Below, in pieces: positions 7,645-54,948 of a stretch of 64,000 nt of DNA. Source of the stretch: Streptomyces sp. NBC_01231. GTDB taxonomy: Bacteria > Actinomycetota > Actinomycetes > Streptomycetales > Streptomycetaceae. Below the pieces are notes generated by a model. That model saw only the letters and a program-made list of their open reading frames with translations. It had not been told where the DNA came from and did no database searches. The position numbers were made by a program, and so were the translations under genes. The stretch is from assembly GCA_035999765.1 (NCBI GenBank), contig CP108521.1, positions 11,222,001-11,286,000 on the forward strand, read 5' to 3'. Within the stretch, counting starts at the first letter, position 1. Every line of letters starts with the position of its first letter.

Positions 7645-8703
7645 GTGGCAGACCGGGAACTCCCGGAGCAGTATCTGGACGGTTACGCCGAGATACTGGC
7701 CGAGGTATCGGCCACGGGGCGACGCCTCACCCGGGACGAGATCTCCTCCCGCCGCGCCCTCGGTGAGCAGGCAGCCGAGGCCGGACACGGGCTGCGCGCC
7801 CTCGTCAGCGCGCATCTGGCCGCCGCCCGCACGGCCTGGCCCCCTTCACCCGGCTCCGCCGACGACGCGCTTGCCGCCGTGCAGCAGATCATCGACGCCT
7901 TCGCCGAGGGATACGAACGCGCCCAGCTAGTCGCCGTGCGCCAGGAAGAGGCCGCCCGCCGCGAGTTCATCGACGACCTTCTCTACGGCCGCAGCGACCT
8001 CGGCCGCCTCGCCGAACGCGCCGAACGCTTCGGCCTGCGCCTGTCCCACGCCCACGCAGTCGCCGTCGCACACGGCCCCGCCGCCTACGACGAGGGCGAC
8101 CCGGTGCCGCAGCAGGTGGAACGGGCGCTCATCTCCCGCTTCGGCGACCGCAGCATCCTGCTCACCACCAAGGACGGCCGGCTGCTGTGCATCGCCCCCG
8201 GCCACCAGGACGAGGTCCTCGCCTACTTCGCCAAACAGGCCCACGCCGCCACCGACGGCGGCCGGGTCGCCATCGGACGACCCCAACCGGGCCCGGGAGG
8301 CGTCGTCCAGTCCTACGAGGAGGCCCTGGGCGTCCTCGAACTCGCCGAGCGCCTCCACCTCGACGCCCCTGTTCTGCGCTCCGCCGACCTGCTGGTCTAC
8401 CCCGTTCTCACCCGCGACCGCCAAGCCATGGCCGACCTCGTCGCCGGCACTCTGGGCCCGCTCACCACGGCCCGCGGCGGCGCGCAGCCGCTCCTCGACA
8501 CGCTCACCGCGTACTTCGACTCCGGCTGCGTGGCCGCCGAGGCCGCCCGCCGCCTCACTCTCAGCGTGCGGGCTCTGACCTACCGCCTGGAACGCATCCA
8601 CAAACTCACCGGCGCCAACCCGGCCGATCCCGCCCACCGTTACATGCTCCAGACAGCGGTGATCGGCGCGCGGCTGCTGGACTGGCCGGCCAAGGACCTC
8701 TGA
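7645..8703 (+). CDS. PucR-type regulator with C-terminal helix-turn-helix
   Basis: I start at GTG 7645, behind GGGGGA; the longer open frame upstream does not look like protein. The 352-residue product has an N-terminal helical part, then a GGDEF-like fold (about 110-240). At the C-terminus is the PucR/CdaR-type helix-turn-helix: LLDTLTAYFDSGCVAAEAAR, then LSVRALTYRLERIHKLTG. These proteins are transcription regulators of catabolic or cell-cycle genes, the HTH binding DNA as a dimer. No target operator is evident. The neighbouring small membrane genes on either side are candidates for regulation by position only. Confidence 0.85.
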   Translation: MADRELPEQYLDGYAEILAEVSATGRRLTRDEISSRRALGEQAAEAGHGLRALVSAHLAAARTAWPPSPGSADDALAAVQQIIDAFAEGYERAQLVAVRQEEAARREFIDDLLYGRSDLGRLAERAERFGLRLSHAHAVAVAHGPAAYDEGDPVPQQVERALISRFGDRSILLTTKDGRLLCIAPGHQDEVLAYFAKQAHAATDGGRVAIGRPQPGPGGVVQSYEEALGVLELAERLHLDAPVLRSADLLVYPVLTRDRQAMADLVAGTLGPLTTARGGAQPLLDTLTAYFDSGCVAAEAARRLTLSVRALTYRLERIHKLTGANPADPAHRYMLQTAVIGARLLDWPAKDL

Positions 8704-29972: not shown

Positions 29973-31295
29973 ATGGCTCTGCCCGCACGGCTGACCGCCG
30001 CCCTGGGACGACACCCCGACGACCTCACCGAGGTCGATCTGCAGCGCGCGATCGAAAGCCACGTACCCGAGAGCGTCGACCTGGACTGGAAGAAGGACTT
30101 CTACCAGGGCACCGACGCGGGCAAGAAGGAACTCGCCAAGGACGTGTCCGCCATGGCCAACACCGCCGGCGGCATGGTCGTCGTCGGCGTCGACGACGGC
30201 AAGCAGGACCACGCACACGCCCTGGCCCCCTTCGAGCCGGTCCCGGGCCGCGGCGAGGAGTGGATCCGTGCGGTGCTCGCGAACTGGATTCAGCCCGTCG
30301 TTCCCAACGTGGGCGTGCGACCGGTGAAGTCCACTGTTCACGAGGGAAAGATCTACTGGGTACTCACCGTGCCCCCGAGCACCCAGGCCCCTCACGCGGT
30401 CGCGGCTCCGGGCAACGACTACAACTTCCGCGTGCACGTCCGGCACGGCACCACGACCCGCACCCTCGCCGAATCCGAGATCGCCCAGCGCTACCGTGAC
30501 CGCTTCCAGGCCGCCTCCGACGACGTCGACCGCCTGCACCAAGTCGCCGACGCAGGCTTCGGCTACCTGTCGGCCTACCTGACCAACACCGCGCACGGCG
30601 GCAGCCCCAGGGTGACCTACTTCCCGGCCTGGGTCAGCCTGGCCGCAGTTCCGGCCGTCCGAGGTACCCACCCACTGACCACTCAGACTGACCGGGAAGC
30701 GGCGTTCGACCGCTTCTTCAAGATCGCCACCGAGGGAGTTACCACCCGCGTGCGGCCGGACCGTCCCGTGCTGGTCGGCCGCCGCCAGGTCCGCTTCGAG
30801 GGCGATCCCACTGGTCAGCTTCACCAGGACGGTGCCTTCTACGGAGCGCTGTCGCTCAACTTCCAGAGCGACCAGTTCGACGCCGACGGCCCCAAGCGGC
30901 TGTTCCAGCGCGGAATTGAACTCGACCTCGTGGCCATGGCGCAGGCTGCCGCAGCTTGGGCGGCAGAGACCGGAGCGGCGGGCGACGTGATGCTGTCCGC
31001 CGCGCTGCACCGCTTCGACGGCAGCGACGATCCTGTCCGCCTGGTCGTATCAGAGAGCGTCTTCCAGCACGGCCCCGCGATGCCGCTGCCCGCAACTCCT
31101 GCGCAGACAACGGGAGACCTCGCCGCCATCGTCACCGACAAGCGAGAGGCTGTCGTCGTGGCCTGCGCCCTCGTCTCCGACCTGCTGGCCGACATGGGAG
31201 CCCACCAGCCGTACGTCCTGACCCCCGAAGGGGACATCCTGACCGACCGACTCAATGACGGCTTCCGCCACCAACTCACGGGCTGGGGCGTATGA
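29973..31295 (+). CDS. AlbA_2 (Schlafen-type) domain protein
   Basis: This 440-residue protein starts at ATG 29973. The N-terminal AlbA_2 domain is clear at about residues 34-75 (SVDLDWKKDFYQ, KKELAKDVSAMANTAGGMVV, VGVDDG), and FRVHVRHGTTTRTLAESEI at about 150-170 closes it. The remaining 270 residues have no domain I recognise and no zinc site. AlbA_2 modules bind nucleic acid and occur in transcription factors and in Schlafen-like nucleases, some with antiphage roles. The gene sits alone between two terminators in an accessory region. A defence role is possible but unsupported by neighbours. Confidence 0.78.
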   Translation: MALPARLTAALGRHPDDLTEVDLQRAIESHVPESVDLDWKKDFYQGTDAGKKELAKDVSAMANTAGGMVVVGVDDGKQDHAHALAPFEPVPGRGEEWIRAVLANWIQPVVPNVGVRPVKSTVHEGKIYWVLTVPPSTQAPHAVAAPGNDYNFRVHVRHGTTTRTLAESEIAQRYRDRFQAASDDVDRLHQVADAGFGYLSAYLTNTAHGGSPRVTYFPAWVSLAAVPAVRGTHPLTTQTDREAAFDRFFKIATEGVTTRVRPDRPVLVGRRQVRFEGDPTGQLHQDGAFYGALSLNFQSDQFDADGPKRLFQRGIELDLVAMAQAAAAWAAETGAAGDVMLSAALHRFDGSDDPVRLVVSESVFQHGPAMPLPATPAQTTGDLAAIVTDKREAVVVACALVSDLLADMGAHQPYVLTPEGDILTDRLNDGFRHQLTGWGV

Positions 31296-31385: not shown

Positions 31386-32111
31386 TCAGTAGTCCTCCCG
31401 CTCGGAGGGCGACCCGTACTGCTCGATGAGGTCACAGGTGCAGGTGCCGCCCTCGTGTAGCGTTTTCTCGCACTCGTCATGGTGGTGCCGCACCGGCGGC
31501 CGCTTCGGCGGCAAGGGCTGCGCTGGTACACGGTCCGTGGGCCGGGCCGGAGCGACCTGAGCGGCGGGCGCAGGCGCTGCGCCCGCCCAGTCGACGCCCA
31601 ACTCAGCTAGGGCGGCGAGCTGTTCGGCGGTGAGCCTGTCCCGTCTCGCGCGAGTGTTCGAAGTCCACACACCGAGCTTGATGACTACCGGCTCCGTCTC
31701 GCCGTCGACCACGATCTCTTCAGCGTGGCCGCGCGGGACAGGCCGGTGGGCGCCTTCCCGCTCCACCCACTGCGCGAGGGCTGCCAGGCCGCGTTGGAAC
31801 GCCTGCTGTGCCTTGCTCGGGCCCTTCGTCGTACGCGTAGCCGCAGGAACCGGAGACGGCGCCTGGACGGGCTTCACGCCCAGCGTGGACAGCCGCTCCT
31901 GCTGCTCGGTCGACAGCTGCGCCCAAGTACCCGGTTGGGACTGCCGCTTGAGCCACCGCCCGATGTCATCGCCGTCCATCAGCACGCCCTGCTGGATCTC
32001 GGGAAGGCTGCCGTCGGCGTCGACCAGGTCGGCGAGGACGCGGTAGTGGCGCTGCCAGTCCAGCGGCCACGGGCAGTTCCAGTCTGGGTCGACCGCCGCC
32101 AGCTGCTTTGG
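31386..32111 (-). pseudogene. Helicase-associated-domain C-terminus, 5' part lost
   Basis: The minus frame contains helicase-associated repeats: AAVDPDWNCPWPLDWQRHYR, LVDADGSLPEIQQGVLMDGD and a second repeat AFQRGLAALAQWVEREGAHR, with KLGVWTSNTRARRDRLTAEQ. These are the tails of very large Streptomyces DEAD-box helicases. The helicase motor domains are absent. Upstream of 32111 the frame leaves the family and overlaps a different gene remnant. The C-terminus has a Cys cluster (CEKTLHEGGTCTC). It is a remnant, though the frame itself is open. Confidence 0.7.
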
Positions 32112-32217
32112 CGATTCCGCCCGCGGCGATGACGGGCAGGGCGACGGCGTGGCGGACGGCGGCGACCAGGTCGGGCAGCTGGACGGACTCTCGATCTTCG
32201 GTACTGGTGACAGAAAG
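32104..32217 (-). pseudogene. Nitronate-monooxygenase-like scrap
   Basis: A minus frame reads VTSTEDRESVQLPDLVAAVR, then HAVALPVIAAGGIAKA, matching the FMN-binding 'PVIAAGGIA' end of nitronate monooxygenase/enoyl reductase II proteins. It is only some 38 codons and is joined out of frame to the helicase tail. Confidence 0.55.
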
Positions 32218-32506
32218 GCTGCCGAAGGAGCATCTGTGACAAGCCGAATGCCTGGTTGGTGCCACCGAGGCTGCCTCACCCCCGGTCCTGTCGGCCAGCT
32301 CATCCGGCTTCACCGGTGACAAGTACTCGGCTTCGGCTCAGTATTCGCGGGCCGCCGCACAGCGCTCTGGCGGCCCGCTCCCGAATCCGCATCACGAATG
32401 CGAGGACGACGATGACCACGTCCTGGCCGCCCCGGCGCGGTGTCCACCGACCGCGTGCTGCCGCGCCCCGCGAGCCGGTCGACCCTGCCCGCATCGGCCG
32501 GAGGTC

Positions 32507-34827: not shown

Positions 34828-35598
34828 ATCGCCAATCTTGTGGTGCCACGCGCCTCTTGCCTACCGACCTCCGACCTAGGGCCACAGCAGCATGGAAGGC
34901 CGAGCCGGGGCATGACACGGCCCGATGTCCCCGATGTCTCAGGGAGGTGGGGAATTACGTGACGTTACCCCTGGGGAAAATCGTGATCGTCGACAGCAGG
35001 TTCGCGGATCCCTGGATGCGGTCTCGTTCCAACCCGCGCGACGAGAGCCGCCTGACGGTGGGGCGGTGGTCGCGCGGGTCCGCCGCGCATGCAGTCGGCG
35101 AGTCTGTGGCTTCATCTTCAGGAGAAGGGCCTGGCCCTGGCCGATGCGCTCGCCGAGGCCGGCGAGCGCATCTCCGCTGGCGAGACGGTCGGCGGACCGG
35201 CCGCCGGCCGCTACCGCACTGCGGGCGCCGAGTTTTCCTACCGCTACACCGGGGCCTGCCTCGGCAAAACGAGGGCTGTGTCCACGACGCTTCCACCACG
35301 CTGTGCACCCCAGACCGCGATCCAGCACAGGCGGCCCCAGGGGCACGCGCCCTGGACGGCCGCACCAACAGGCAGGTCGCGGTACGCCGAGGGCGGGTTC
35401 TGCTCACGCCCAGTCCAGGGGGCGACGGTGGCTCGACGGGGCGGCGAAGGCGCAGGGAGCGGAGGCGAAGGCGGATGAGGTTGTCGATCGTGGTCACCGG
35501 AGAAAGCTGCCGATGCCGAAGGGAATAGGGCATATGAGCCAAGGGTGACGGCCCCCCGTTTGGCCGGTCGGGACCCTTCCGGGCCGTCAGACTCCTAG
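34828..35598. other. Non-coding or degraded stretch upstream of an IS
   Basis: Several plus-strand frames switch every 100-200 bases. One at about 35100-35270 reads LHLQEKGLALADALAEAGER, then AGRYRTAGAEFSYRYTGACL, which looks protein-like. No family or intact gene emerges, so I treat it as a degraded gene cut by the insertion of the IS at 35599. Confidence 0.35.
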
Positions 35599-35614
35599 AG
35601 ATCGTCTTCAAAGG

Positions 35615-36118
35615 TCAGATCCAGAGCAGGATCGAGGCGATGGTGACGGCAGCTTGGTAGGACTCGCGGGTCTTGTCGTAGCGAGTGGCCAGGCCGCGCC
35701 ACTGCTTGAGTCGGTTGAAGCAGCGCTCGACGACGTTGCGGCGGCGGTAGAGGCATCGGTCGAAGCCGGGCGGCCGTCCGCCGCGTGTGCCGCGGTTCAG
35801 TCGGCCCAGGATCTGGTCGACGCGTTCGGGGATCGTGTGCGGGATGCCGCGTCGTCGCAGGTATGCGCGGATCTTTCGAGAGCTGTAGCCCTTGTCGGCG
35901 ACCACACGGTCGGGTCGGGTCCGAGGACGTCCGGGCCCGACTCTGGGCACGGTGATCGAGCCCATCACCTGCTCGAAGCGGGTGCAGTCGTTGGCGTTGC
36001 CGCCCGATAAGACGAAGCCGAGAGGGCGGCCGAGTCCGTCGCAGGCCAGGTGGACTTTCGTGCTCAGTCCGCCGCGTGATCGGCCGAGGGCGTGATCACC
36101 CGCTTCGTCCCGGTCGAC
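35615..36118 (-). CDS. IS5-family transposase, second frame (orfB)
   Basis: This frame has no good start and must be read as a fusion with orfA. It contains ALGRSRGGLSTKVHLACDGL, GNANDCTRFEQVMGS, VADKGYSSRKIRAYLRRRG and the C-terminal box RRNVVERCFNRLKQWRGLAT with the catalytic Glu. It is the catalytic half of the DDE transposase. Relative to orfA it is in the +1 frame. The AAAAGGGGG run near 36120 is the likely slip site or, if the element is dead, the site of an indel. Confidence 0.8.
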   Translation of the reverse strand, partial: VDRDEAGDHALGRSRGGLSTKVHLACDGLGRPLGFVLSGGNANDCTRFEQVMGSITVPRVGPGRPRTRPDRVVADKGYSSRKIRAYLRRRGIPHTIPERVDQILGRLNRGTRGGRPPGFDRCLYRRRNVVERCFNRLKQWRGLATRYDKTRESYQAAVTIASILLWI

Positions 36119-36474
36119 TGCCCCCTTTTGCCGCCGGCGGCATGCTGGTGAGCCCGCACGATCGTGGAGTCGACCGACACCAGCCAGTCGATGTCATCGC
36201 CCGCGTCCTTCTCCGCCTGGACGGCCCGCAGCATGCGCGAGAACGTGCCGTCCAGTGCCCACCTGCGGAAACGCGTGTACAAGGTCTGCCAGGAGCCATA
36301 GCGTTCCGGAACATCACGCCAGGCCGATCCGGTGCGGAGCTTCCACACGATCCCGTTCAGTACCACCCGGTCGTCCGAACGGGGCCGCCCCGCGGTCCCC
36401 GAACTCGGCAACAACCGCGACAGCACAGCCCACTCAGCATCCGAAAGCTCATGACGGCGCACCACGACAAGCAT
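36064..36474 (-). CDS. IS5-family transposase, first frame (orfA)
   Basis: From 36474 the product reads MLVVVRRHELSDAEWAVLSR, SGSAWRDVPERYGSWQTLYT, then RRWALDGTFSRMLRAVQAEK and WLVSVDSTIVRAHQHAAGGK with the first catalytic Asp. It ends 136 codons in with a tail read out of the main frame. The frame change after AGGK joins it to orfB. It is 36 bases inside the right terminal repeat. Confidence 0.85.
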   Translation of the reverse strand: MLVVVRRHELSDAEWAVLSRLLPSSGTAGRPRSDDRVVLNGIVWKLRTGSAWRDVPERYGSWQTLYTRFRRWALDGTFSRMLRAVQAEKDAGDDIDWLVSVDSTIVRAHQHAAGGKRGQSTGTKRVITPSADHAAD

Positions 36475-36528
36475 GATCCCTCATCACTTGATCACCTTTG
36501 AAGACGCCCCCTAGGAGGGAACGCTCCG

Positions 36529-37431
36529 ATGGGGCGTGCGTATGGGCGATACGGGGTGGGCGTGACCGAGCGCGGCAGGGCCGACCGTGCCGCTCCGGGC
36601 GAGACGGGGCTGGGTGTGACGGACCACGGCGTCCATCGCGCACGCGCGGCGATCGGGGACCGACCGGGTGGGCGACAAGGCAGCGACAAGCAGCGGCGAG
36701 ACGACGGGCCGGCGCGTGCGGTGCCGCGGCACGTAGCCTGCGTGATGGACGGCAACGGCCGCTGGGCTCAACGGCGTTCGCTTCCACGGACGGCGGGCCA
36801 TCGGGCTGCGGAGACCACCGTCATCGACATCATCGAGGCGGCCCGGGCGGCCGGAGTCGAGTGGCTCAGCCTGTACGCCTTCTCCACCGAGAACTGGAAC
36901 CGTCCCGGCACCGAGGTCGACTACCTGATGCGTTTGGTCCGCCGGGTTGTGCGCAAGCATGCGCCGCTGCTGCTCGCCCGCGGCATCCGCTGCCGCTTCC
37001 TCGGGGCCGCAGACCCGCGCATCCCCCGTGAACTGGCCCGGGACTTCGACGATCTGGCGACGCTGACCGCCGACAACGAGGGGATGACGCTCACCGTCGC
37101 CTTCGACCACGGCGGACGCCGAGACATCGTCGAGGCCGCCAGGTCGCTGATCCGCAGCGGGACACCCGCCGATGATGTGACCGAGCGGCTCTTCGCGAAC
37201 CACCTGCCGTTCCCCGACACCCCCGACGTCGACCTCGTCATCCGCACCTCCGGCGAGCAGCGCATCTCCAACTTCATGCTCTGGCAGGTCGCCTACGCCG
37301 AGTGGGTCTTCCCCGAGGTGCTCTGGCCGGACTTCCGGGCCCCTGACTTCCTCGCCTGCCTGCACACCTACCGGCGCCGTGACCGCCGCTTCGGCGGCGT
37401 GCAGCCCCAGACGAACGGAGACCCGTCATGA
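36529..37431 (+). CDS. cis-Prenyltransferase (UppS/short-chain Z-type)
   Basis: I start at ATG 36529, nine bases after GGAGGG; GTG 36562 is an alternative. The 300-residue protein has an extra N-terminal 65 residues, then the complete cis-prenyltransferase fold. HVACVMDGNGRWA has the catalytic Asp near residue 74; SLYAFSTENWNRP, the FLGAADPRIP region, and the isopentenyl-binding end RTSGEQRISNFMLWQVAYAE follow. The enzyme condenses isopentenyl diphosphate into Z-polyprenyl diphosphates at the membrane. The stop overlaps the next ATG by four bases, so it is coupled to an MpaB-like oxygenase. That context suggests a specialised prenyl product rather than the housekeeping cell-wall lipid. Confidence 0.88.
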   Translation: MGRAYGRYGVGVTERGRADRAAPGETGLGVTDHGVHRARAAIGDRPGGRQGSDKQRRDDGPARAVPRHVACVMDGNGRWAQRRSLPRTAGHRAAETTVIDIIEAARAAGVEWLSLYAFSTENWNRPGTEVDYLMRLVRRVVRKHAPLLLARGIRCRFLGAADPRIPRELARDFDDLATLTADNEGMTLTVAFDHGGRRDIVEAARSLIRSGTPADDVTERLFANHLPFPDTPDVDLVIRTSGEQRISNFMLWQVAYAEWVFPEVLWPDFRAPDFLACLHTYRRRDRRFGGVQPQTNGDPS

Positions 37432-38897
37432 CGACTGGAACCACGGGAACGGCCGACGAGGCCTTCCTGTTCGGCCCGGAATCGCGGTTTTGCGCCTTCT
37501 TCGATGACCCGCGCTGGGCGCTGGCCATCATCCGCGCCACCGTGCTGGAGGCCGCCCACCCACAGATCGGCGCCGCCCTCGCCGACAACTCCACCTTCGT
37601 CGCCCACCCCTGGCGTCGGCTGCGCAACACCTTCCTCAGCATGCGGCGCATGTTCGACGCCGACCCAGCCGTACGAGAACGGGAGGCCGCCCGGCTCAAC
37701 AGGCTGCACGCCCGCATGAGCGGCTCCGACTCTCGCGGCCGCGCCTACGACGCCATGGACCGCGCGACCCGCGCCTGGGTGGTCGCCACCCTCTACGAGA
37801 GCGCCGTCACCATGTGCCGGCTGAGCGGTCAGCCGCTCGACCAGGACACTATGGAGCGCATGTACGGCGAGTACCGCGCGTTCCTCGCCGCGCTCGACGG
37901 CGACGCCGGGGAACTCCCCGAGGACCTGAACGACTTCTGGCAGTACTTCGACAGGGTCGTCGAGGACGAGCTGGAGAACACCGAGGCAGCCCGCATCATC
38001 CTCTACCGGCTCTTCGACCACCTGCCCGCCCCGGCACTGCTCGACGGCGCGCCGACACTGTGGGCGGCCAGCCGGGCCGTCGTCGGTCCGCTCCTCGGCG
38101 CGATCACTGTCGCCTCGCTTCCCGAGCCCTACCGGCGCAGGGCCGGCTTGCCCGAGACGCCCGGCGCCCCGACCCTCATGCAGGGCGCCTACCTCGCCGC
38201 GGGGCTCACCCGTTTCCTGCCCGAGGGCTGGATCAATGCCGAAACAATCATCGAGGCCCTCTCCCTCTCGCCCGACAGCGACGACCCCCGCGCCCGGAAC
38301 GTGACCGCGCTGCGCGCCCGCATGAAGCGGGCATCGGCCCTGCTCCGCCTCCTCACACCACAGAGCGGTGACACCGGCCCCGACCCGGTCCCGGCTACCT
38401 CGCCGACCACGGGAGAGGGCCGGCGTTCGGCGGAGGAGTTCTTCCGTCAGGTGCTGGACCAGACCGGCGACGGCCACCTCGACTGGCCTGACCTCGCCGC
38501 CATGGCACGCGAACTGGCCACCCGCCTTGACCTGGACGAACCCGAGGAGACCCGGCTCTACGACGCCTTCGCCGCCTGGTGGCGCGAGCTCCAGGCCGCC
38601 CTCGACACGGACGGCGACGGCCGTGTCAGCGCCGACGAGTACGCCGCCGCCGTACCCTCCCTCGCCGGTCCTGCGCTCATCCGCGTCGCCGAGGTGCTCT
38701 TCGACGCCACCGATAAGGACGGCAGCGGGACCATCAACGCGGACGAACACCGGGCGCTCTTCCGCACCGCCTTCCACCGCGACCTCACCACTATCGACAG
38801 CACCTACGGCCGCAGCGCCTTCGTGGGCGACTTCCTTTCCTTCATGTCCGGCCGCCGCAGGAACACCGCGTATGACTCCCTTCTCGCCGACGCCTGA
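37428..38897 (+). CDS. MpaB/rubber-oxygenase-like (DUF2236) protein fused to EF-hands
   Basis: The ATG overlaps the prenyltransferase stop (ATGA), giving 489 residues. Residues 15-310 are a DUF2236 domain: FGPESRFCAFFDDPRWALAI, LEAAHPQIGAALADNSTF, RLRNTFLSMRRMF, NRLHARMSGS, DFWQYFDRVVEDEL. The family includes latex-clearing protein and fungal MpaB, heme enzymes that cut isoprenoid double bonds. The usual W-V-H-A-T His appears as Val at residue 119 (AWVVATL), which may affect heme ligation. The C-terminal 160 residues carry three EF-hand loops at residues 344 (DQTGDGHLDWPD), 393 (DTDGDGRVSADE) and 429 (DKDGSGTINADE), so calcium control is likely. No signal peptide is seen. Confidence 0.85.
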   Translation: MTTGTTGTADEAFLFGPESRFCAFFDDPRWALAIIRATVLEAAHPQIGAALADNSTFVAHPWRRLRNTFLSMRRMFDADPAVREREAARLNRLHARMSGSDSRGRAYDAMDRATRAWVVATLYESAVTMCRLSGQPLDQDTMERMYGEYRAFLAALDGDAGELPEDLNDFWQYFDRVVEDELENTEAARIILYRLFDHLPAPALLDGAPTLWAASRAVVGPLLGAITVASLPEPYRRRAGLPETPGAPTLMQGAYLAAGLTRFLPEGWINAETIIEALSLSPDSDDPRARNVTALRARMKRASALLRLLTPQSGDTGPDPVPATSPTTGEGRRSAEEFFRQVLDQTGDGHLDWPDLAAMARELATRLDLDEPEETRLYDAFAAWWRELQAALDTDGDGRVSADEYAAAVPSLAGPALIRVAEVLFDATDKDGSGTINADEHRALFRTAFHRDLTTIDSTYGRSAFVGDFLSFMSGRRRNTAYDSLLADA

Positions 38898-39450
38898 CGA
38901 ACTCGTGCATGTTGGCGGCCACGGCACGTTCGTACCCACGTCCGGAGTTGTGGCTCAGGGGGCCGCGAAATCTCCTCGAGCGGCAGGACTTCCTGGGCGC
39001 GCGCTTCTCGTCCACACACTCGTCGCTCTGGCAGCGTCGGCAGCTAGGCGGCAACACGTTAAAACTGTCCGCAGAAGCGGTGGTTGTCAGGATGCCGGGC
39101 CAGCCAAGCGGAGCCGGTGAGGGAGCCACCCGGCTGGAAGTCGGTCGGCGGGCCAGCCCACTGCACATGGGTTTGTTGCGCCAGACGTTGGGTCAGGGCG
39201 TTGCGGCGGATGGTGCGCTGAGTGTTGCGGTAGGTGTTGCGCGAGCCTGCACGGCGTCCTGGAGTTCGCCCAGGTCAGCACCAGTGCGCGGGCGTGGTCG
39301 GGGTGCTGACATCCCCGTTGTGGCCGCTTTTGCCCATGTCTTTGGCTGGAGTTGAGGAGAGGGAGGTCGGGATGGGCGGCGCGGACGCCCCGGGGATCGG
39401 GGTGCGCTCAGCCGGTTGCGCGTCGGCGGGGCCGCCGCGCCCGTGCCGTG
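38898..39450. other. Intergenic region, mostly repeat sequence
   Basis: No gene is supported. From about 39185 the sequence is a direct repeat of 48190 onward. The first 290 bases have no features I can name. Confidence 0.5.
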
Positions 39451-43060: not shown

Positions 43061-43690
43061 ATGCGGGCCGATGCGCAACGCAATGCCGAGAAGCTGCGGT
43101 CAGCCGCCGCCGAGCTGTTTCGCGAACGCGGCCTCCAGGCGCCCCTGAAGGAGATCGCCCGCCGGGCCGGTGTGAGCCACGGAACCCTCTACAACCTCTT
43201 CGGCACGCGCGAGGCACTCATCGACGAGGTGGTGGCCGACCTGGCGGCGGCCCGCCTGGGCGAGGTCGCCGAGCACGCCCTTGCCCACGACGACGCCTGG
43301 GACGGATTCGCGTACTACATCGAGACGCTCTGCGAACTGCAGGCCACGGACCCCGCGATCAGCGATGTGGTCGCCGGCCGCTACCCGGGCGCCGAACGCC
43401 TGATGGCCGTCTGCAAGCGTTCCTACGCCGGCGCCGCGCGCATCATCGAGCGCGCCCAGCAAGCCGGCGCCCTGCGCGCCGACTTCACCACTGAGGACCT
43501 GCTGTTCATCTTCGGCACCAACGCCCAGCTGGCCCGTGCCGCCAAGGACACCGCCCCCGACGCCTGGCGCCGCGGTGTCGCCTTCATGCTCGACGGCCTG
43601 CGTACTGAAGCCGCCCACCCACTCCCCACCGGCCCGCTGACCTCCCAACAGCTGTACCAGGTGATGGGCCACCTCAACGACACGCCGTAA
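43061..43690 (+). CDS. TetR-family regulator of the SDR gene
   Basis: This 209-residue protein starts at ATG 43061 with AGGAGG upstream. The HTH is clear: LRSAAAELFRERGLQAPLKE, then IARRAGVSHGTLYNLFGTRE. The rest is a helical sensor domain. It sits opposite the SDR gene with two TTGACC-N4-GGTCAA palindromes between, the classical arrangement of a repressor controlling itself and a divergent target. The inducer is unknown; pairs of this kind often respond to the SDR substrate. Confidence 0.92.
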   Translation: MRADAQRNAEKLRSAAAELFRERGLQAPLKEIARRAGVSHGTLYNLFGTREALIDEVVADLAAARLGEVAEHALAHDDAWDGFAYYIETLCELQATDPAISDVVAGRYPGAERLMAVCKRSYAGAARIIERAQQAGALRADFTTEDLLFIFGTNAQLARAAKDTAPDAWRRGVAFMLDGLRTEAAHPLPTGPLTSQQLYQVMGHLNDTP

Positions 43691-43760
43691 CCGGTCGGCC
43701 GCGACGGCCGACCGGGCCGGACGGTTGCGCGTCGGCGGGGCCGCCGCGCCGGGCCCGCCG

Positions 43761-44739
43761 TCAGCGCCGCGGTGAGGTCAGGTGGGGGATGCCGGTGGGG
43801 GAGAGGTCGGGGCGGGCGCGGTGCCAGCGTGTGGGATGTCGCCATCGGCCGGAGGCGTCGCGGGCGACGTCGACGCCGACTTCCACCACCAGCTCGGGTT
43901 CCACCAGCGTGACGTTCAGTTTTTCCTGGCTGCCCCACCCGGCGGAGAGCGACCAGCCTGTCCACGGATGCCCGCGCCGCCGCAGCGAGCAGGCCGGCGA
44001 ACGCCGCACCTGCCGCCTGGGCGAGGGTGGTGGTGCGGCCGACATACTGAAGGCGTCCTTCGGTGTCGTACCTGCCGAGCAGCAGCGTGCGGGGAGCAAC
44101 CAGGGAACCGGTGATCGCGCCGACGATCGCCTCGCTCGTCTCGCGGACCTTGTACTTCCGCCACGACCGAGCGCCCCCAACGTACGGCTCCTCCAGCCGC
44201 TTGAAGCACAGCCCCTCCACCCCGGCCGCCGTCCACGCCAGCCACCCCCTCGCCACCGCCGGGTCGGTGGTCGACGGGCACAACGTCAACGGCGCCGCCA
44301 GGCCCAGGTCCGCGAACATCGCCTCCAGCGCCGCGCGCCGCCGCTCGTATGGCCAGCCGGTCACATCCGCGCCCGCGTGGACCAGGTCGAAGACCACGTA
44401 GTGAGCCGGCCACTGGCGCGACGCCTCGGCCGCACCGGCTCCGCGCCGGGCGAGCCGCTGCTGAAGCCGCTCGAACGCCAGCCGGTCTCGCTCCCACACC
44501 ACCAGCTCGCCGTCCAGCCCGGTGTTTTCCGGGAGTTGCGCGAGGGCAGCCGCCCGGATCTCGGGGAATGAGCCGGTCATGTCCGTCCCCTGCCTGGAGC
44601 GCAGCAGTACCCGCCCGCCCGCGTGCGCGGCGAGCTGGGCGCGGTAGCCGTCCCATTTCGGTTCTCCCGCCCACCCTGTGGGCAGGGCAGGGCTTTCGAC
44701 GGCCACGGTCAGCATCGGATCGGGCAAGGACCACGTCAT
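43761..44739 (-). pseudogene. ATP-dependent DNA ligase, nearly complete, one frameshift
   Basis: From ATG 44739 (GGAAGG upstream) the adenylation domain is whole: MTWSLPDPMLTVAVE, AGEPKWDGYRAQLAAHAGGR with catalytic Lys, DGELVVWERD, GLCFKRLEEPYVGGARSWRK, YKVRETSEAIVGAITGSL. The OB domain begins (LQYVGRTTTLAQAAGAAFAG) and near 43975 jumps frame, continuing with GHPWTGWSLSAGWGSQEKLN, VTLVEPELVVEVGVDVARD to the stop at 43761. One base lost in a GC-rich run explains it. It is the best-preserved of five ligase copies here; if the shift is a sequence error it is a working enzyme of about 325 residues. Confidence 0.78.
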
Positions 44740-44840
44740 GCGCAGATGCCTTCCACACGGGCCGCGCATGTTCCCGCTGGGCTGCCCTGACCGCCACGGC
44801 CGACTCGCCCCACGAACCGGCCCGGGTCACGCTGGAAGGC

Positions 44841-49025: not shown

Positions 49026-49571
49026 CTAGCCGTTGGCGAAGATTTCCTCGTTCGTCTCGAACAGGTGCTCGTCCAATGGCATGTCGGGGAAGTACTCAGA
49101 CTTGGTTTCTCCCGTCATCAGCGACAACAGGAACGAGGTGCAGGGGCCAGGGTGCCGTTCCCATTCGGGGCCGCGTCCTTCGTTGATCAGGATGGGCCAG
49201 GTCTCGGGCGCTTGGCCGGGCGTGGCCAGCAGGTAGAGGACTTCACCGCCTTCGTCCTCGTAGGCCCAGGGGATAAGCCGGGCGCCTTCTTGGTCCAGCT
49301 CCGCGGGGCGGGGTTCGCCGCGCTCCCACAGTTGGTGCAGCGACTCGCGGCACTCGGCGTCCATGGCGATCAGGTCGTAGCGCGGCCTTGGGCATCCGGG
49401 TTCCAGCAGCCACACGTTTTCGTCGAAGACGCCGCCTCCGTAGGTGTCGACGAGCTGCTTGTAGTCCTCGGGCAAGGGGGTGCCCAGCTGCTCCTCGACG
49501 GTGTCCCAGTCCTTCGGTGCGGCGGCCGGGGGCGGCAGCAGCTCGGTGAGGCGTGTGAGCGACGGGTTCAT
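49026..49571 (-). CDS. SMI1/KNR4-family immunity protein
   Basis: This 181-residue protein starts at ATG 49571, whose A is also the last base of the toxin's TGA stop. The SMI1/KNR4 (SUKH) pattern is clear: WDTVEEQLGTPLPEDYKQLV, DTYGGGVFDENVWLLEP, LIPWAYEDEGGEVLYLLATP, ETWPILINEGRGPEWERHPG. SUKH proteins are common immunity factors that bind and neutralise nuclease toxins. Position directly after an RHS nuclease and the one-base overlap make it the cognate immunity gene. Confidence 0.92.
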   Translation of the reverse strand: MNPSLTRLTELLPPPAAAPKDWDTVEEQLGTPLPEDYKQLVDTYGGGVFDENVWLLEPGCPRPRYDLIAMDAECRESLHQLWERGEPRPAELDQEGARLIPWAYEDEGGEVLYLLATPGQAPETWPILINEGRGPEWERHPGPCTSFLLSLMTGETKSEYFPDMPLDEHLFETNEEIFANG

Positions 49572-52500
49572 CAGCGTTCCTCCGGTCGGGGCTCGTTAAG
49601 GATAGTGACGGAGTTGGTCGCGCTGTCCGAGCCCAGGGGGGTGAACTGGAATCCGCGGTTTCCGTGTGCCTCGATGGTGACGCCGACGGGCACCACATCG
49701 GTCGGGTCGTTGGTCTTGTAGATCGGTGTGACGTTGTAGTTGATCGTCTCGCCCCGGTCCACGGCCGCGCGTACGTCGTTCTCGACCTGCCGCATGACCG
49801 GGCTGTTGGCGTACGCGTGCATGGCGACGAAGTTGCGGGGGTCCCTGTTGGATCCGCCGATCTGGGCTCCCAGCAGGTGGCCCTTGTTCCATGCGCCACC
49901 GCGTTGGTAGCCGGGCACATTGACCCGGGGGCGGGTCTTGCCGCCCATCATGTCGGGTTCCAGTTTTGCGCGGACACCGGTCGCGCGATTGCCCGGGCCG
50001 AGTGGCCCGTACTGGACGCGGCCGCCCCACGTGACCTCTGCCTCGTCGCACTTGGCGAGGCCGAGGGGGTCGAGCTCGGTGTGCGGGTTGGTCACGTAGG
50101 TGACCGGGTTCGGGGCGGGGGCCAGGCCGAGCGGGTCGGGGGTGGTATAGCGGGCGGTTTCGGGATCGTAGTGGCGGAAGTAGTTGTAGTGCAGGCCGGT
50201 TTCGGGATCGGCGTACTGGCCGGGGAAGCGCAATGGGGTGTAGGCGGTGGCGTCGGTGTTCCAGGCCGTGGTGCCCCACGCGGTGGTCCGGGTGCGCCAG
50301 GCGATGGCGTTCTCGTCGACCAATTCCGTGGGTGTGCCCACCAGGTCTGTGACGATGGCGAAGAAGCGGGCGTCGACCTCGTCCTGCGTCGAAGGCTTGC
50401 GCTCGTACTGGGCCAGCGGCCGGTATCCGTCGTACTCCCAGGTCAGCACAGTGCTGGTGGTGGCGTCCATCTGTTCTGCGAGGCGGGTGCCATCCCAGCT
50501 GAAGAGGGTTTCCTCGACGATGGTGGTGTTGTCCTCGGCGAGACGGTACTTCGCCGTGCGGCGCCCGAGGGGGTCGTAGCGGTAGTGCCAGACGGTGCCG
50601 TCAGGCGTGGTGCACGACGTCAGCCGGTTCTCCGGGTCCCAGGAGTACCGCCACGTGTCCGGCTTGCGGGAGAGCCGCTTGCGGCTGCGCTCGACGAGGC
50701 GGCCCGCGCTGTCGTACCGGTAGGTGACGCGCCCCGCAGACAGCAGCCGGGTCCCGGTAACGGAACGGTCGCCGGCCGCCTCGGGGTCGCCGATGCCGTC
50801 GGCCCAGGCGGCGTGTGTCTGGTTGCCGGCAGGATCGTAGCGGTAGGTCTCGGTGGTGCCACGCCTGGTGGTGACGGAGAGGGGACGGCCAAGGGGGTCG
50901 AGTTCGTAGCGCAGACTGCTGCTGCTGGTGCTGCGGTCGGTGACGGAGGTGAGATGGCCGTCCGGGCGGTAGGTGAACTCCCGCTCATGCGGACGGCGTT
51001 CACCAAAAGCGAGGGTCTGGCCAGTCAGCCGGCCCAACGCGTCCCAGGCCGAGGTGAGCGACGCCTGCGCGCCCCAGGTCCGCTGGACCTCCCGGCCCAG
51101 AAGGTCGTGTTCGAAGGCGAGCCGGTGGGCGTCCGCGACCGTCAGGCCGGTGCGGTTGCCGGCCGTGTCCCAGGACGTCTCGGTGACGGCACCCGTCGGG
51201 GTGGTGCGGCCGGTGCGCCGTCCGGTCGCGTCGTAGCGGTAGCGCATAGTGCGTCCGTCGACCGTCTCGGCCACCATCCGCCCCACGGCGTCGTACTCGA
51301 GGCCAAGCCGCGATGTTGCGGAGAAGGCAGCCGTCAGGCGCCCGGCGCTGTCGTAGGTGTACTCGGTTCGAGCCCCGTCGGCTTCCTTGGCGCGCAGATC
51401 ACCGACTGTGTCGTACTCAAAGGTGAACGTGGTTCCCGTCGGTGTGCGCCGGGCGACCAACTGACCGGCCGCATCGTAGGTACTGCGGGTGGTACGGCCG
51501 TCGAAGTCGGTCTCCGTGACCAGGGCGCCCCGCTCGTCGTACCGGTACGTCCAGGTCAGCCCGGCAGGGTCGGTGACGGTGGTCAGCCGCATCTCTGTGT
51601 CGTGGGTGAACGTGTAGACGGCGCCGTCCGCTGTGGTGCGTGTCCTGAGCAGGTCGAAAGGTCCGTAGGTGAACGCGCTAACGCCGCCGGCCTGATCCGT
51701 GTGGGAGAGGCAATTGCTCTCACCGTCCCAACTCCAGCTCTCGCGTGACCCGTCGGCGGCCACACGCTCCAGCAGGCGGCTCTCCGCGTCCCAGGTCAGC
51801 CGGGTCGTTCCGCCGAGAGCATCGGTGAGGACGACGGGACGGCCGAACGTGTCGCGCACGCACGTGGTACGGGCGCCGCGACTGTTCTCGACGGCGAGCA
51901 GCAGCCCGGCCCGGTCCGCTTCCATGCGCACGTTCGCGCCCAGCGCGTCGGTCAAGGTCGCAGGCGCCCCCGTCGGGTGGTGCGTGAACCGGGTGACCGC
52001 GCCGTCGGGGCCCGTGACCGCAATGCGATTGCCCCGGCCATCGAATTCCTGCTGGATTTGCGTACCGTCCGGGCCCGTCCAGCGCGTCGGCAGGTGCAGA
52101 TCGTTGTACACGGTGCGGCTGACGGTGCCGTCTGCGGCCGTGATGCTCACCAGGTCGCCCGCGTCGTCCCACTCCCAGCGGGTGGTGCGGCCCAGAGGAT
52201 CCGTGCGGGACAGCAGATGGTCGCGACGGTCCCACTCCTGGGTGATCGTCGCGCCAAGCGGCTCCGTGACAGCGATGACCTGGCCGTGCCGGTTGGCACG
52301 GTAGACCGTGGCGTGCCCGAGAGAGTCCGTGTAGGTGGCGGCGGTGGCACCGTTCTCGTCCGGACCGGTGTATTCGATACGGGAGTTGAGGACATCTCCG
52401 GTGCCTCGGGTGGCGGTCACCCGGCCCTGCGCGTCGTACTCGTACGCGAAGCTTGTGTCGTTGGAATCACGCCAGCCGGTGACGCGGTGCGCACTGTCGT

Positions 52501-54283
52501 GGGTCAGGTACAGCGGGGCATCGACCGCGTTGCGCACCTGGGTCAGGTCCCCGCCGGTTTCGTCATAGGCGAAGCCACGTATTCGGACGGGTCCGTCATC
52601 GGTCAGGGCGTGCAGGGAAGTGACGCGTATCTGGTCGCCGACAGTGTTGGTGGTGACCTGCAGGCTGTAGCCGCCGGTGTGGGTGACGGCGAGCGGAGCG
52701 TCGTCCTCCCCACGGTCGATGCCGATGATGTTGTGGTTACGGTCCTCGACCGCCGCCAGCCACCAGGTCCCATCACCCGCGGCGGACGCCTCGAAATGCC
52801 GGACCAGGCCGGAGTAGGGATCCTCCACCGTCAGGACATAAGAGGTGCCGCGAGTGACGTAAGTCAGGGGCAGCGGGGCGCCTGCGGCGGGCAGAACGCG
52901 GTCGCCGGGCAGGTCGGGCCGGCGGGGATAGACCAGGACCGAGCCATCCTCGCGGTACCACCAGAAGCCGCCCAGCTCCCGATTGTCTTCAAGGCGTTCG
53001 TCCAAGGTGGAAGCCCAGGAAGAGCCGAAGAAATGCCCTGCCTCGTAGCCGGTGAGATGTGTACGACGCAGCGTGAGCGCCAGCACGCCAGGCAAGTCCA
53101 CATCGGTCTGACTGAGGACCATCTGCCCGCTGGCCATGTCGATCGGGTCCCCGCACGTCTCCCTGCTGTTCAGGGCATGGGCTTGCCGAGACAGCTTCGC
53201 CGAGTCGATCTTCAGCCCGTCGTCCGTCTTGCGACCCGAGGCGGGAGTGCCGCCGCCCCCGTCGCCCTTGTTGAGGCGAACATTGCGGGCCCGGTCACGG
53301 ACATCGATGTCGACGCCTTTGTGCAGCCGGGACGTCGCCTTTACCCGGTCCGGCACCGTCTCGGTGATGTGCTTGGCTACCTTGCCCAGGGCCTTCTCAG
53401 AACCCTTGAGCGCGCCGTGCAGCACGCTGTCGAAGGCCTGCGTGAACGGATCACGGCCCTTGCTGCGGCCAAACGCGCCCCTGGCCCGCCCCAGCGGCGA
53501 GGAAGAGGCCAAGTGCAGCTCGCCGCCGTGCCGCGAGACCTTCCCGGCCCCGTCCTCGAACTCGAAGTGGTCGATCTTGGTGGCCTTCTGAGCGCCCCCG
53601 CCACCGCTGCCTTCGGAGCCGCCGGCCGAGGCAAGCTGCATACCCCCATGCCCGCCGTGTCCGCCGCCACTGCCACCAGTTCCCCCGCTCCCTTCGGCGG
53701 GCGGCATCGAGAACGCTCCGTCGGCCAGGTCGAGCACCATGTCCTCGACCATCGCCTCCAGCTTGGCGTTGATCGGCTCCGTGATCTTGGCCAGGACCTC
53801 CTCGACGATCCGGTCGACGGCCTCGTCAATGATCCGCTTGATCACCTGGCGCATCGCAGCGACCTCGGCCGCGCCGAGCACCGCAGACAGGCCGCCGGTG
53901 ACGACGGCAAGCCCGGCGGCAATACCCAACGACCCGGCCATGATCACCAGTTCGGCCTCGGCCTTGCGTTTCATCCCGAAGATGATGTCCGCCAGGACGT
54001 CACAGGCGTCCGCGAACAGCCGGGCAAGTTCGGGAAGTTTCTCAAGGTGGCTAGCCTTCACCTGGTTCCAGTGCTTCTCCATGGCGTCGACGGCCCAGCC
54101 CTCCGAGGAGGACAGGATCCTTGAGACTGCCTTGTGGGCGTCACCGCCGTGGCCCTCGAACTGTTCCGCGAACTCCCGCATGGCCTCGGCCATTTCGCGG
54201 TAGTCGTCCTCGTCCACGTTCGGGAAATTGATCCCGATGAAGTCCAGGATCTCGTCCAGCCAGCCCGGGATCGTGTAACCCAT
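49571..54283 (-). CDS. RHS polymorphic toxin with NucA-type nuclease end
   Basis: I start at ATG 54283 (MGYTIPGWLDEILDFIGINF), seven bases after GGAGG, giving 1570 residues. Residues 1-200 are helical and WXG/LXG-like, with a hydrophobic hairpin (AELVIMAGSLGIAAGLAVVT). A Gly-rich linker follows, and from about 380 a DUF6531-type segment (CGDPIDMASGQMVLSQTDVD). Many YD/RHS repeats occupy about 550-1330. The core closes with GLHYNYFRHYDPETARYTTP, DPLGL. The last 158 residues are a DNA/RNA non-specific endonuclease with GAWNKGHLLGAQIGGSNRDP (active His about 1469). No signal peptide, so type VII-like export is likely. It kills competitors; the next gene protects. Confidence 0.92.
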   Translation of the reverse strand: MGYTIPGWLDEILDFIGINFPNVDEDDYREMAEAMREFAEQFEGHGGDAHKAVSRILSSSEGWAVDAMEKHWNQVKASHLEKLPELARLFADACDVLADIIFGMKRKAEAELVIMAGSLGIAAGLAVVTGGLSAVLGAAEVAAMRQVIKRIIDEAVDRIVEEVLAKITEPINAKLEAMVEDMVLDLADGAFSMPPAEGSGGTGGSGGGHGGHGGMQLASAGGSEGSGGGGAQKATKIDHFEFEDGAGKVSRHGGELHLASSSPLGRARGAFGRSKGRDPFTQAFDSVLHGALKGSEKALGKVAKHITETVPDRVKATSRLHKGVDIDVRDRARNVRLNKGDGGGGTPASGRKTDDGLKIDSAKLSRQAHALNSRETCGDPIDMASGQMVLSQTDVDLPGVLALTLRRTHLTGYEAGHFFGSSWASTLDERLEDNRELGGFWWYREDGSVLVYPRRPDLPGDRVLPAAGAPLPLTYVTRGTSYVLTVEDPYSGLVRHFEASAAGDGTWWLAAVEDRNHNIIGIDRGEDDAPLAVTHTGGYSLQVTTNTVGDQIRVTSLHALTDDGPVRIRGFAYDETGGDLTQVRNAVDAPLYLTHDSAHRVTGWRDSNDTSFAYEYDAQGRVTATRGTGDVLNSRIEYTGPDENGATAATYTDSLGHATVYRANRHGQVIAVTEPLGATITQEWDRRDHLLSRTDPLGRTTRWEWDDAGDLVSITAADGTVSRTVYNDLHLPTRWTGPDGTQIQQEFDGRGNRIAVTGPDGAVTRFTHHPTGAPATLTDALGANVRMEADRAGLLLAVENSRGARTTCVRDTFGRPVVLTDALGGTTRLTWDAESRLLERVAADGSRESWSWDGESNCLSHTDQAGGVSAFTYGPFDLLRTRTTADGAVYTFTHDTEMRLTTVTDPAGLTWTYRYDERGALVTETDFDGRTTRSTYDAAGQLVARRTPTGTTFTFEYDTVGDLRAKEADGARTEYTYDSAGRLTAAFSATSRLGLEYDAVGRMVAETVDGRTMRYRYDATGRRTGRTTPTGAVTETSWDTAGNRTGLTVADAHRLAFEHDLLGREVQRTWGAQASLTSAWDALGRLTGQTLAFGERRPHEREFTYRPDGHLTSVTDRSTSSSSLRYELDPLGRPLSVTTRRGTTETYRYDPAGNQTHAAWADGIGDPEAAGDRSVTGTRLLSAGRVTYRYDSAGRLVERSRKRLSRKPDTWRYSWDPENRLTSCTTPDGTVWHYRYDPLGRRTAKYRLAEDNTTIVEETLFSWDGTRLAEQMDATTSTVLTWEYDGYRPLAQYERKPSTQDEVDARFFAIVTDLVGTPTELVDENAIAWRTRTTAWGTTAWNTDATAYTPLRFPGQYADPETGLHYNYFRHYDPETARYTTPDPLGLAPAPNPVTYVTNPHTELDPLGLAKCDEAEVTWGGRVQYGPLGPGNRATGVRAKLEPDMMGGKTRPRVNVPGYQRGGAWNKGHLLGAQIGGSNRDPRNFVAMHAYANSPVMRQVENDVRAAVDRGETINYNVTPIYKTNDPTDVVPVGVTIEAHGNRGFQFTPLGSDSATNSVTILNEPRPEER

Positions 54284-54579
54284 CCCCGTTCCTCCCCCGA
54301 TGCCCACGGTCCTGCTCACGTGGGCAAACTTGCCGCACGTGCGATCAAGAACTCTAGTAGGCGGCAGTGACACCTGCGCAAGCGAGAAAGAAGCCAGCCC
54401 CGTCGCTGTCGCAGCGCAGCGGGGTCCAGGGGCATTCGCCGGACAACACGCTCCGACGGTCTGCTGCCCTTGGGCGGATCCGGCAAGTGCACGACGGAAA
54501 GCGCAACGATCCGTCCCTGGTTCAAAGAGTCTTCGCCTCGGTCCCCGCCACTCCGAGAGTCTGATTACCCAGGCATCGG

Positions 54580-54948
54580 TCAGGCCGTTGGCCAGTCGTC
54601 TGTGGCCCACTTCTGGTTGGCAGTCACCTCACGTGCGACGCGTCGCCACTGGGCTTGTCCGCCTGGCAGCGGCCAGGCCCAGGAGGGCTGTGGCGCCGTG
54701 CGTAGCTCCTGGAGACGGCGGGCAAGAAACGGTCCTGCGATGGCGGCACCATCTGGGACAGCGGTGCCATGGATGGTGCGGAGCTCCGCGAAGCGGGCCA
54801 GTTCGGCCTCGTAATGGTGCACTGCCTGCGTGGCGCCTGCGAGCACCTCATCGCTTGATGAGGTGCGGCCTGGTTGGCGGCGTGACTGTACTTCCAGGGA
54901 CAAGCCCGTCCAAGTGCCGTCGTCCCGAGTGATGTCCGTGCGCCGCAT
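54580..54948 (-). CDS. Hypothetical protein upstream of the RHS toxin
   Basis: This 122-residue protein starts at ATG 54948 after AAGG. It is soluble, mixed alpha/beta, with ATQAVHHYEAELARFAELRT and WRRVAREVTANQKWATDDWP at the end. I know no family. It lies on the same strand as, and 296 bases upstream of, the toxin, in the place where chaperone or adaptor genes for secreted toxins often sit, but that role is speculation. The 296-base gap has no gene. Confidence 0.55.
   Translation of the reverse strand: MRRTDITRDDGTWTGLSLEVQSRRQPGRTSSSDEVLAGATQAVHHYEAELARFAELRTIHGTAVPDGAAIAGPFLARRLQELRTAPQPSWAWPLPGGQAQWRRVAREVTANQKWATDDWPTA

Follow-up and report, generated by a model that had tools for sequence, protein, structure and literature searches.

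A recurrent gene pair encoding a cis-prenyltransferase and an EF-hand-fused MpaB/Lcp-type oxygenase in Streptomyces, with a possible make-then-cleave role

Can an enzyme that builds isoprenoid chains and a second one that may cut them belong to a single genetic unit? The question is raised by two genes of Streptomyces sp. NBC_01231 that lie within the window analysed here, i.e. the whole stretch of 64,000 nucleotides (contig CP108521.1, positions 11,222,001 to 11,286,000), situated 52 kb from one end of the 11.34-Mb single-contig genome. As stated in the original prediction, which was made from the DNA letters alone, a cis-prenyltransferase (CPT) gene and an MpaB-like gene overlap by ATGA at 37428-37431, and the two products matched the Pfam families PF01255 (E 1.1e-73, 247.9 bits against a cut-off of 27) and PF09995, MPAB_Lcp_cat (E 2.4e-48, 165.6 bits against a cut-off of 23). 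The pair was found to recur in many genomes as a two-gene cassette. We give about an even chance to its being a stand-alone actinomycete module in which the CPT makes a Z-polyprenyl diphosphate, the coupled haem oxygenase cleaves a C=C bond and the EF-hands tune the system to calcium.

Recurrence and inheritance of the pair

A search of a genome collection yielded 111 relatives, of which the best 80 were analysed; conservation is counted below over 81 rows, these 80 and the window. The CPT gene was located directly upstream of the oxygenase gene in all of these best 80 relatives, and the stop/start overlap read NTGA in 78 of them. Among 200 Streptomycetaceae genomes, 72 matched the oxygenase at E <= 1e-40, comprising 36 with close near-full-length copies (one of them over two contigs), one with a broken fragment and 35 with distant copies. 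The clade CPT (E <= 1e-80) was present in 35 of the 200 genomes, all of them among the 36 and always adjoining the oxygenase, and the remaining close oxygenase is accompanied by a frameshifted CPT. Stops had been flagged in four of these 35 CPTs; on opening, each showed its stop ahead of a core that is itself open, although one core is a few codons short at its end. Co-occurrence, the check put forward with the original prediction, is thus far beyond chance (80/80 relatives, and always adjacent in the 35 genomes). At locus L116 the oxygenase frame is open but the neighbouring CPT is broken across two frames, through either decay of the copy or an error in sequencing.

The pair also extends beyond the family. 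With a distant relative, L101, as query, 22 of 394 genomes matched class-wide, and in the five opened of the seven matches outside the family a CPT stood beside the oxygenase each time. The phylum-wide search with the window protein matched 6 of 396 genomes, all of the same genus; it was less sensitive, three candidates being scored per genome in the results shown. Plasmid records matched the oxygenase in 24 cases, seven at 69% identity or above, and the CPT was annotated upstream in all four of these close copies that were opened, once with a 143-base gap in the annotation; a 35% relative on another plasmid lacks the CPT. Outside the pair no reading frame was common to more than 10 of the 81 loci, and a larger conserved cluster was therefore rejected. 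The squalene/phytoene synthase of L101 and the polyprenyl synthetase of locus L005 (both described below), used as queries, matched at 1 and 3 of the 80 loci, respectively. These results suggest a mobile cassette of two genes, which are passed on and exchanged together among genomes. A defence system and carriage by viruses were considered and rejected, as neither protein matched PADLOC, no copy was present among viral contigs and no viral fold was matched at E <= 0.001.

Conserved features of the two proteins

The catalytic motifs of the CPT (MDGNGRW, ENW and SGE-R-SN) are invariant wherever present in the 81 rows, one of which is incomplete. The enzyme is unlike the two other CPTs of its own genome, being 43% identical to L086 and 40% to L087, three residues shorter ahead of the VDLVIRT strand and carrying His194 in the NYGGR motif in 81 of 81 rows where both paralogues have Tyr. 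An Ala is present in its YAFS motif; E. coli UppS has Ala69 at this site, and short-chain enzymes have a larger residue. Because of this Ala the product is probably longer than C15. The best matches in the Protein Data Bank (PDB) were bacterial synthases, with 7cpn and 2vg2 at 233.7 and 219.7 bits, and these UppS and actinobacterial CPTs have the catalytic motifs in common with the window enzyme.

The longest CPT frame starts at ATG 36529, and GTG 36721 is the likely start, giving a protein of about 236 aa. This is because codons 1-62 of the longer frame are weakly constrained, with mismatches against 12 relatives of 0.124/0.119/0.173 by codon position compared with 0.025/0.029/0.109 in the core and gaps that are not multiples of three in 5 of the 12, because in-frame stops fall in the 67 codons ahead of the core in three of the four additional relatives opened, and because of the RefSeq starts of relatives, which correspond to GTG 36721 in one record and, judged by length, lie three codons earlier in two and seven codons later in one. 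Speaking against this start, the frame is open for 270-465 codons in 13 of 13 rows, with a long open part upstream, although a G+C-rich genome easily gives such lengths.

The predicted fold of the second protein is that of solved haem oxygenases that cleave C=C bonds, and the Foldseek listing included t-anethole oxygenase (8s1j) at E 8e-4. Arg64, Asn67 and Thr68 are kept in all 81 rows, and His94 is kept in 81/81, in 56/56 and in 29/29 sequences, the last set including two canonical paralogues. The Asp53 site holds D in 76 rows, E in 4 and A in 1, and Asp53 precedes Arg64 by 11 residues as Asp57 precedes Arg68 in Gordonia Nro1. His94 follows Arg64 by 30 residues; in the excerpts of the literature used throughout this report, the proximal His198 of Lcp lies 34 residues past Arg164 (PMC5522427) and His104 of Nro1 lies 36 residues past Arg68 (PMC12724181). 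On these grounds His94 is proposed as the proximal haem ligand, with Arg64 and Thr68 as active-site counterparts. The original prediction had taken Val119 as the loss of an expected His. The Val119 itself is confirmed (V in 77, I in 3 and A in 1 of the 81 rows), but it does not appear to be the site of a lost key His, since the His of the WVH motif would stand 55 residues past Arg64, and spacing favours His94. The WVH motif is a feature of canonical paralogues and not a criterion of the Pfam family; a His at this site was seen in L001, L002, L096, L111 and L113, the last three of which belong to the wider EF-hand group.

EF-hand models matched the second protein beside PF09995. The three C-terminal loops that had been predicted (residues 344-355, 393-404 and 429-440) hold acceptable ligands at positions 1, 3, 5, 9 and 12 in 80, 80 and 78 of the 81 rows, respectively. 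At one locus, L142, a separate EF-hand protein of 189 aa (7696-8265, + strand) is encoded in divergent orientation about 0.7 kb upstream of the pair.

A possible make-then-cleave module and its alternatives

In the proposed mechanism, the CPT, which differs from both its paralogues in the genome, would form a Z-configured polyprenyl diphosphate, and the oxygenase would be produced from the same message through coupled translation. It would act as an intracellular b-type-haem enzyme of the MpaB/Lcp fold and would oxidatively cut a C=C bond of the CPT chain or of the derived alcohol to give an aldehyde or ketone apo-isoprenoid, while the EF-hand domain may adjust its activity to calcium. That one enzyme cuts the product of the other is suggested by the known chemistry of the fold together with the inseparable pairing. 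The make-then-cleave reading of the original prediction is supported in part: the recurrence, the predicted haem-oxygenase fold, the kept active-site positions and the L101 gene run speak for it, and Val119 as a lost key His is not supported. A bolder version, in which a dedicated CPT and a calcium-gated haem oxygenase cutting a set double bond form an apo-polyprenoid system that yields a new class of cis-apo-isoprenoid metabolites or signals, analogous for polyprenyl chains to the apocarotenoids, is tentative and somewhat doubtful.

Several observations weigh against cleavage of the CPT product. No gene near the pair points to a product in the neighbourhoods of the 81 loci, and genome G146 has a broken oxygenase fragment and no CPT was found in it. 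Lcp was absent among the 50 Foldseek matches listed. At the sequence level no link to Lcp or 8s1j was found, either with a profile run against PDB sequences or with a canonical paralogue as query. His94, Arg64 and Thr68 were mapped onto Lcp and Nro1 by spacing and overall fold. The WVH His is gone from the whole clade, and Asn67 stands in 81 of 81 rows in place of the distal Lys167, a residue present in 59% of Lcps (PMC5522427).

Among the distant members, moreover, the oxygenase does not always accompany a CPT. In a quick tree the EF-hand/MpaB fusions fell into three groups, namely the CPT-coupled clade, the L111/L113 pair and a large group that includes L101; the deepest row of the first is L096, whose long branch makes its placement less sure. 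Among 18 distant members opened, 17 have no CPT within about 5 kb, and six of these (L102, L105, L106, L108, L110 and L112) share a fixed neighbourhood with genes that are cydA/cydB-like by eye. L101, the sole exception, has the order CPT, squalene/phytoene synthase (PF00494, E 3e-23) and oxygenase, with the first two overlapping by ATGA and the oxygenase ATG inside the synthase end. This different CPT link supports a putative isoprenoid role for the family. It also suits an unlikely alternative that the distant relatives favour, in which the CPT supplies a mere precursor or lipid carrier and the substrate of the oxygenase is an isoprenoid made later in the pathway or some other alkene, as the product of the intervening synthase may be the substrate in L101; the window's clade, however, keeps the pair inseparable with no third gene conserved. 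In the same genome as the window, near 8455 kb, another PF09995 gene stands directly behind a polyprenyl synthetase gene (L005:16-2313), possibly a second make-then-cleave pair built on a trans-type enzyme.

The overlapping genes would suit a fixed stoichiometry, and with the loss of the WVH His across the clade this lends some weight to a different role, in which the oxygenase-fold protein is a calcium-sensing partner that alters how active the CPT is or how long its chains become, in the manner of NgBR/Nus1 with the eukaryotic CPT. We consider this quite improbable, as Asp53, Arg64, Thr68 and His94 are conserved although they would be needless for a scaffold, and the CPT retains its own catalytic motifs, with bacterial synthases as its best PDB matches. 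A spare undecaprenyl-type synthase for stress or inhibitor bypass, with the oxygenase recycling or detoxifying surplus polyprenols, agrees with the RefSeq name uppS and the identity to L086 but is highly unlikely given the clade-specific His194 and the two other CPTs already in the genome.

The component families of the pair are already known, and the CPT-oxygenase-EF-hand arrangement was not found described; no title or abstract opening listed in the literature searched describes a DUF2236/MpaB-CPT or EF-hand arrangement, most subscription journals lying outside its coverage, so that this is no proof. LcpK30 of Streptomyces sp. K30, 12% identical in a structural alignment, lacks the C-terminal EF-hand domain and the CPT coupling and has Lys167 for Asn67, and the window protein differs from it in that no secretion signal, twin-arginine or hydrophobic, is visible by eye. 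Nro1 and 8s1j, with about 300-323 aa, are too short for the EF-hand domain, Nro1 has Arg72 at the site of Thr68, and the excerpted account of Nro1 and t-anethole oxygenase gives no CPT link (PMC12724181). Fungal MpaB of mycophenolic acid synthesis, which cuts a prenyl-chain double bond (PMC12724181), is named in the Pfam family and ER-bound by its Pfam name, and is likened here by description. The calcium-binding protein of Streptomyces coelicolor (3aka/3akb) is a separate protein of 166 residues, unlike the fused EF-hands here. As far as the excerpts go, the MpaB of PMC11002830 is an unrelated daptide enzyme, the mention of CPT in the Lcp structure paper concerns plant rubber (PMC5522427), and a paper with both EF-hand and latex clearing protein (PMC7468451) is unrelated. 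The known roles of rubber and MpaB-type oxygenases are the degradation of external polymers and the trimming of the precursor of a fungal drug; in this pair the oxygenase gene is tied to that of a potential substrate maker and carries a fused calcium domain. If the pair works as proposed, it would offer a compact means of making cis-apo-isoprenoids and an example of a bacterial metabolic enzyme under calcium control. As the module is two genes found in many named strains, it is directly testable.

Upstream leader, coordinates and neighbouring genes

The leader of the pair is interrupted by an insertion sequence (IS) that has inverted repeats at its termini and is flanked on each side by CTAG, and further long matches to it in the own genome have 68-71% identity; the leader is continuous in 6 of 6 aligned relatives. 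The IS had been placed 18 bases upstream, which holds for the distance to 36529, and it ends about 210 bases before the likely start. About 50 bases to the left of the IS is an element with the core AGGGTGA, now separated from the genes by 0.9 kb of IS. In a set of 76 leaders, from the window and 75 relatives, 46 have AGGGTGA no more than 420 bases ahead of the core; owing to the IS, the copy in the window lies further from the genes. This cassette-specific element may be a promoter or operator. A regulon was rejected, as the own copy is the sole genomic site at <=1 mismatch and at <=3 mismatches 43 sites were obtained, compared with 29 when the pattern was reversed as a control. A known RNA leader was likewise rejected, since 35300-39400 gave no match in Rfam up to E 0.5. 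In L057 a palindrome, TCGTACGTACGA, precedes the AGGGTGA element.

Table 1. Positions of the gene pair, its proposed functional sites and its leader in the window
Feature	Position	Strand	Basis
Upstream element TAGGGCATATGAGCCAAGGGTGAC, promoter- or operator-like	35526..35549	+	Common to leaders of relatives
CTAG, left copy, probable target duplication	35595..35598	.	Inverted-repeat arms and unbroken leader of relatives
Insertion sequence, IS4/IS5 type, holding transposase frames at 36064-36474 and 35615-35968	35599..36510	-	Terminal repeats; PF13340 and PF01609
CTAG, right copy, probable target duplication	36511..36514	.	Inverted-repeat arms and unbroken leader of relatives
CPT, probable start GTG 36721	36721..37431	+	PF01255; longest frame from ATG 36529
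ATGA stop/start overlap of CPT and oxygenase genes	37428..37431	+	Reading frames; NTGA in relatives
MpaB/Lcp-type oxygenase domain fused to EF-hand domain, 489 aa	37428..38897	+	Pfam and predicted fold
MPAB_Lcp_cat domain, residues 25-252	37500..38183	+	Pfam
Asp53, proposed counterpart of Lcp Glu148 / Nro1 Asp57	37584..37586	+	Conservation, spacing
Arg64-x-x-Asn67-Thr68, proposed counterpart of Lcp Arg164-x-x-Lys167-Thr168	37617..37631	+	81/81 rows
His94, proposed proximal haem ligand (Lcp His198, Nro1 His104)	37707..37709	+	Conservation, spacing
Val119, site of WVH His in canonical members	37782..37784	+	Conservation
EF loop 1, residues 344-355	38457..38492	+	Ligand conservation
EF loop 2, residues 393-404	38604..38639	+	Ligand conservation
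EF loop 3, residues 429-440	38712..38747	+	Ligand conservation

Elsewhere in the window, a 1679-aa RHS-repeat protein (49571-54610, - strand) has a WXG100-like stretch near its N-terminus and a C-terminal DNA/RNA non-specific endonuclease domain, and is polymorphic toxin-like. The same chromosome arm encodes a Schlafen AlbA_2 protein (29973-31295), a helicase-associated-domain protein (31386-32303) and an ATP-dependent DNA ligase domain (43423-44769).
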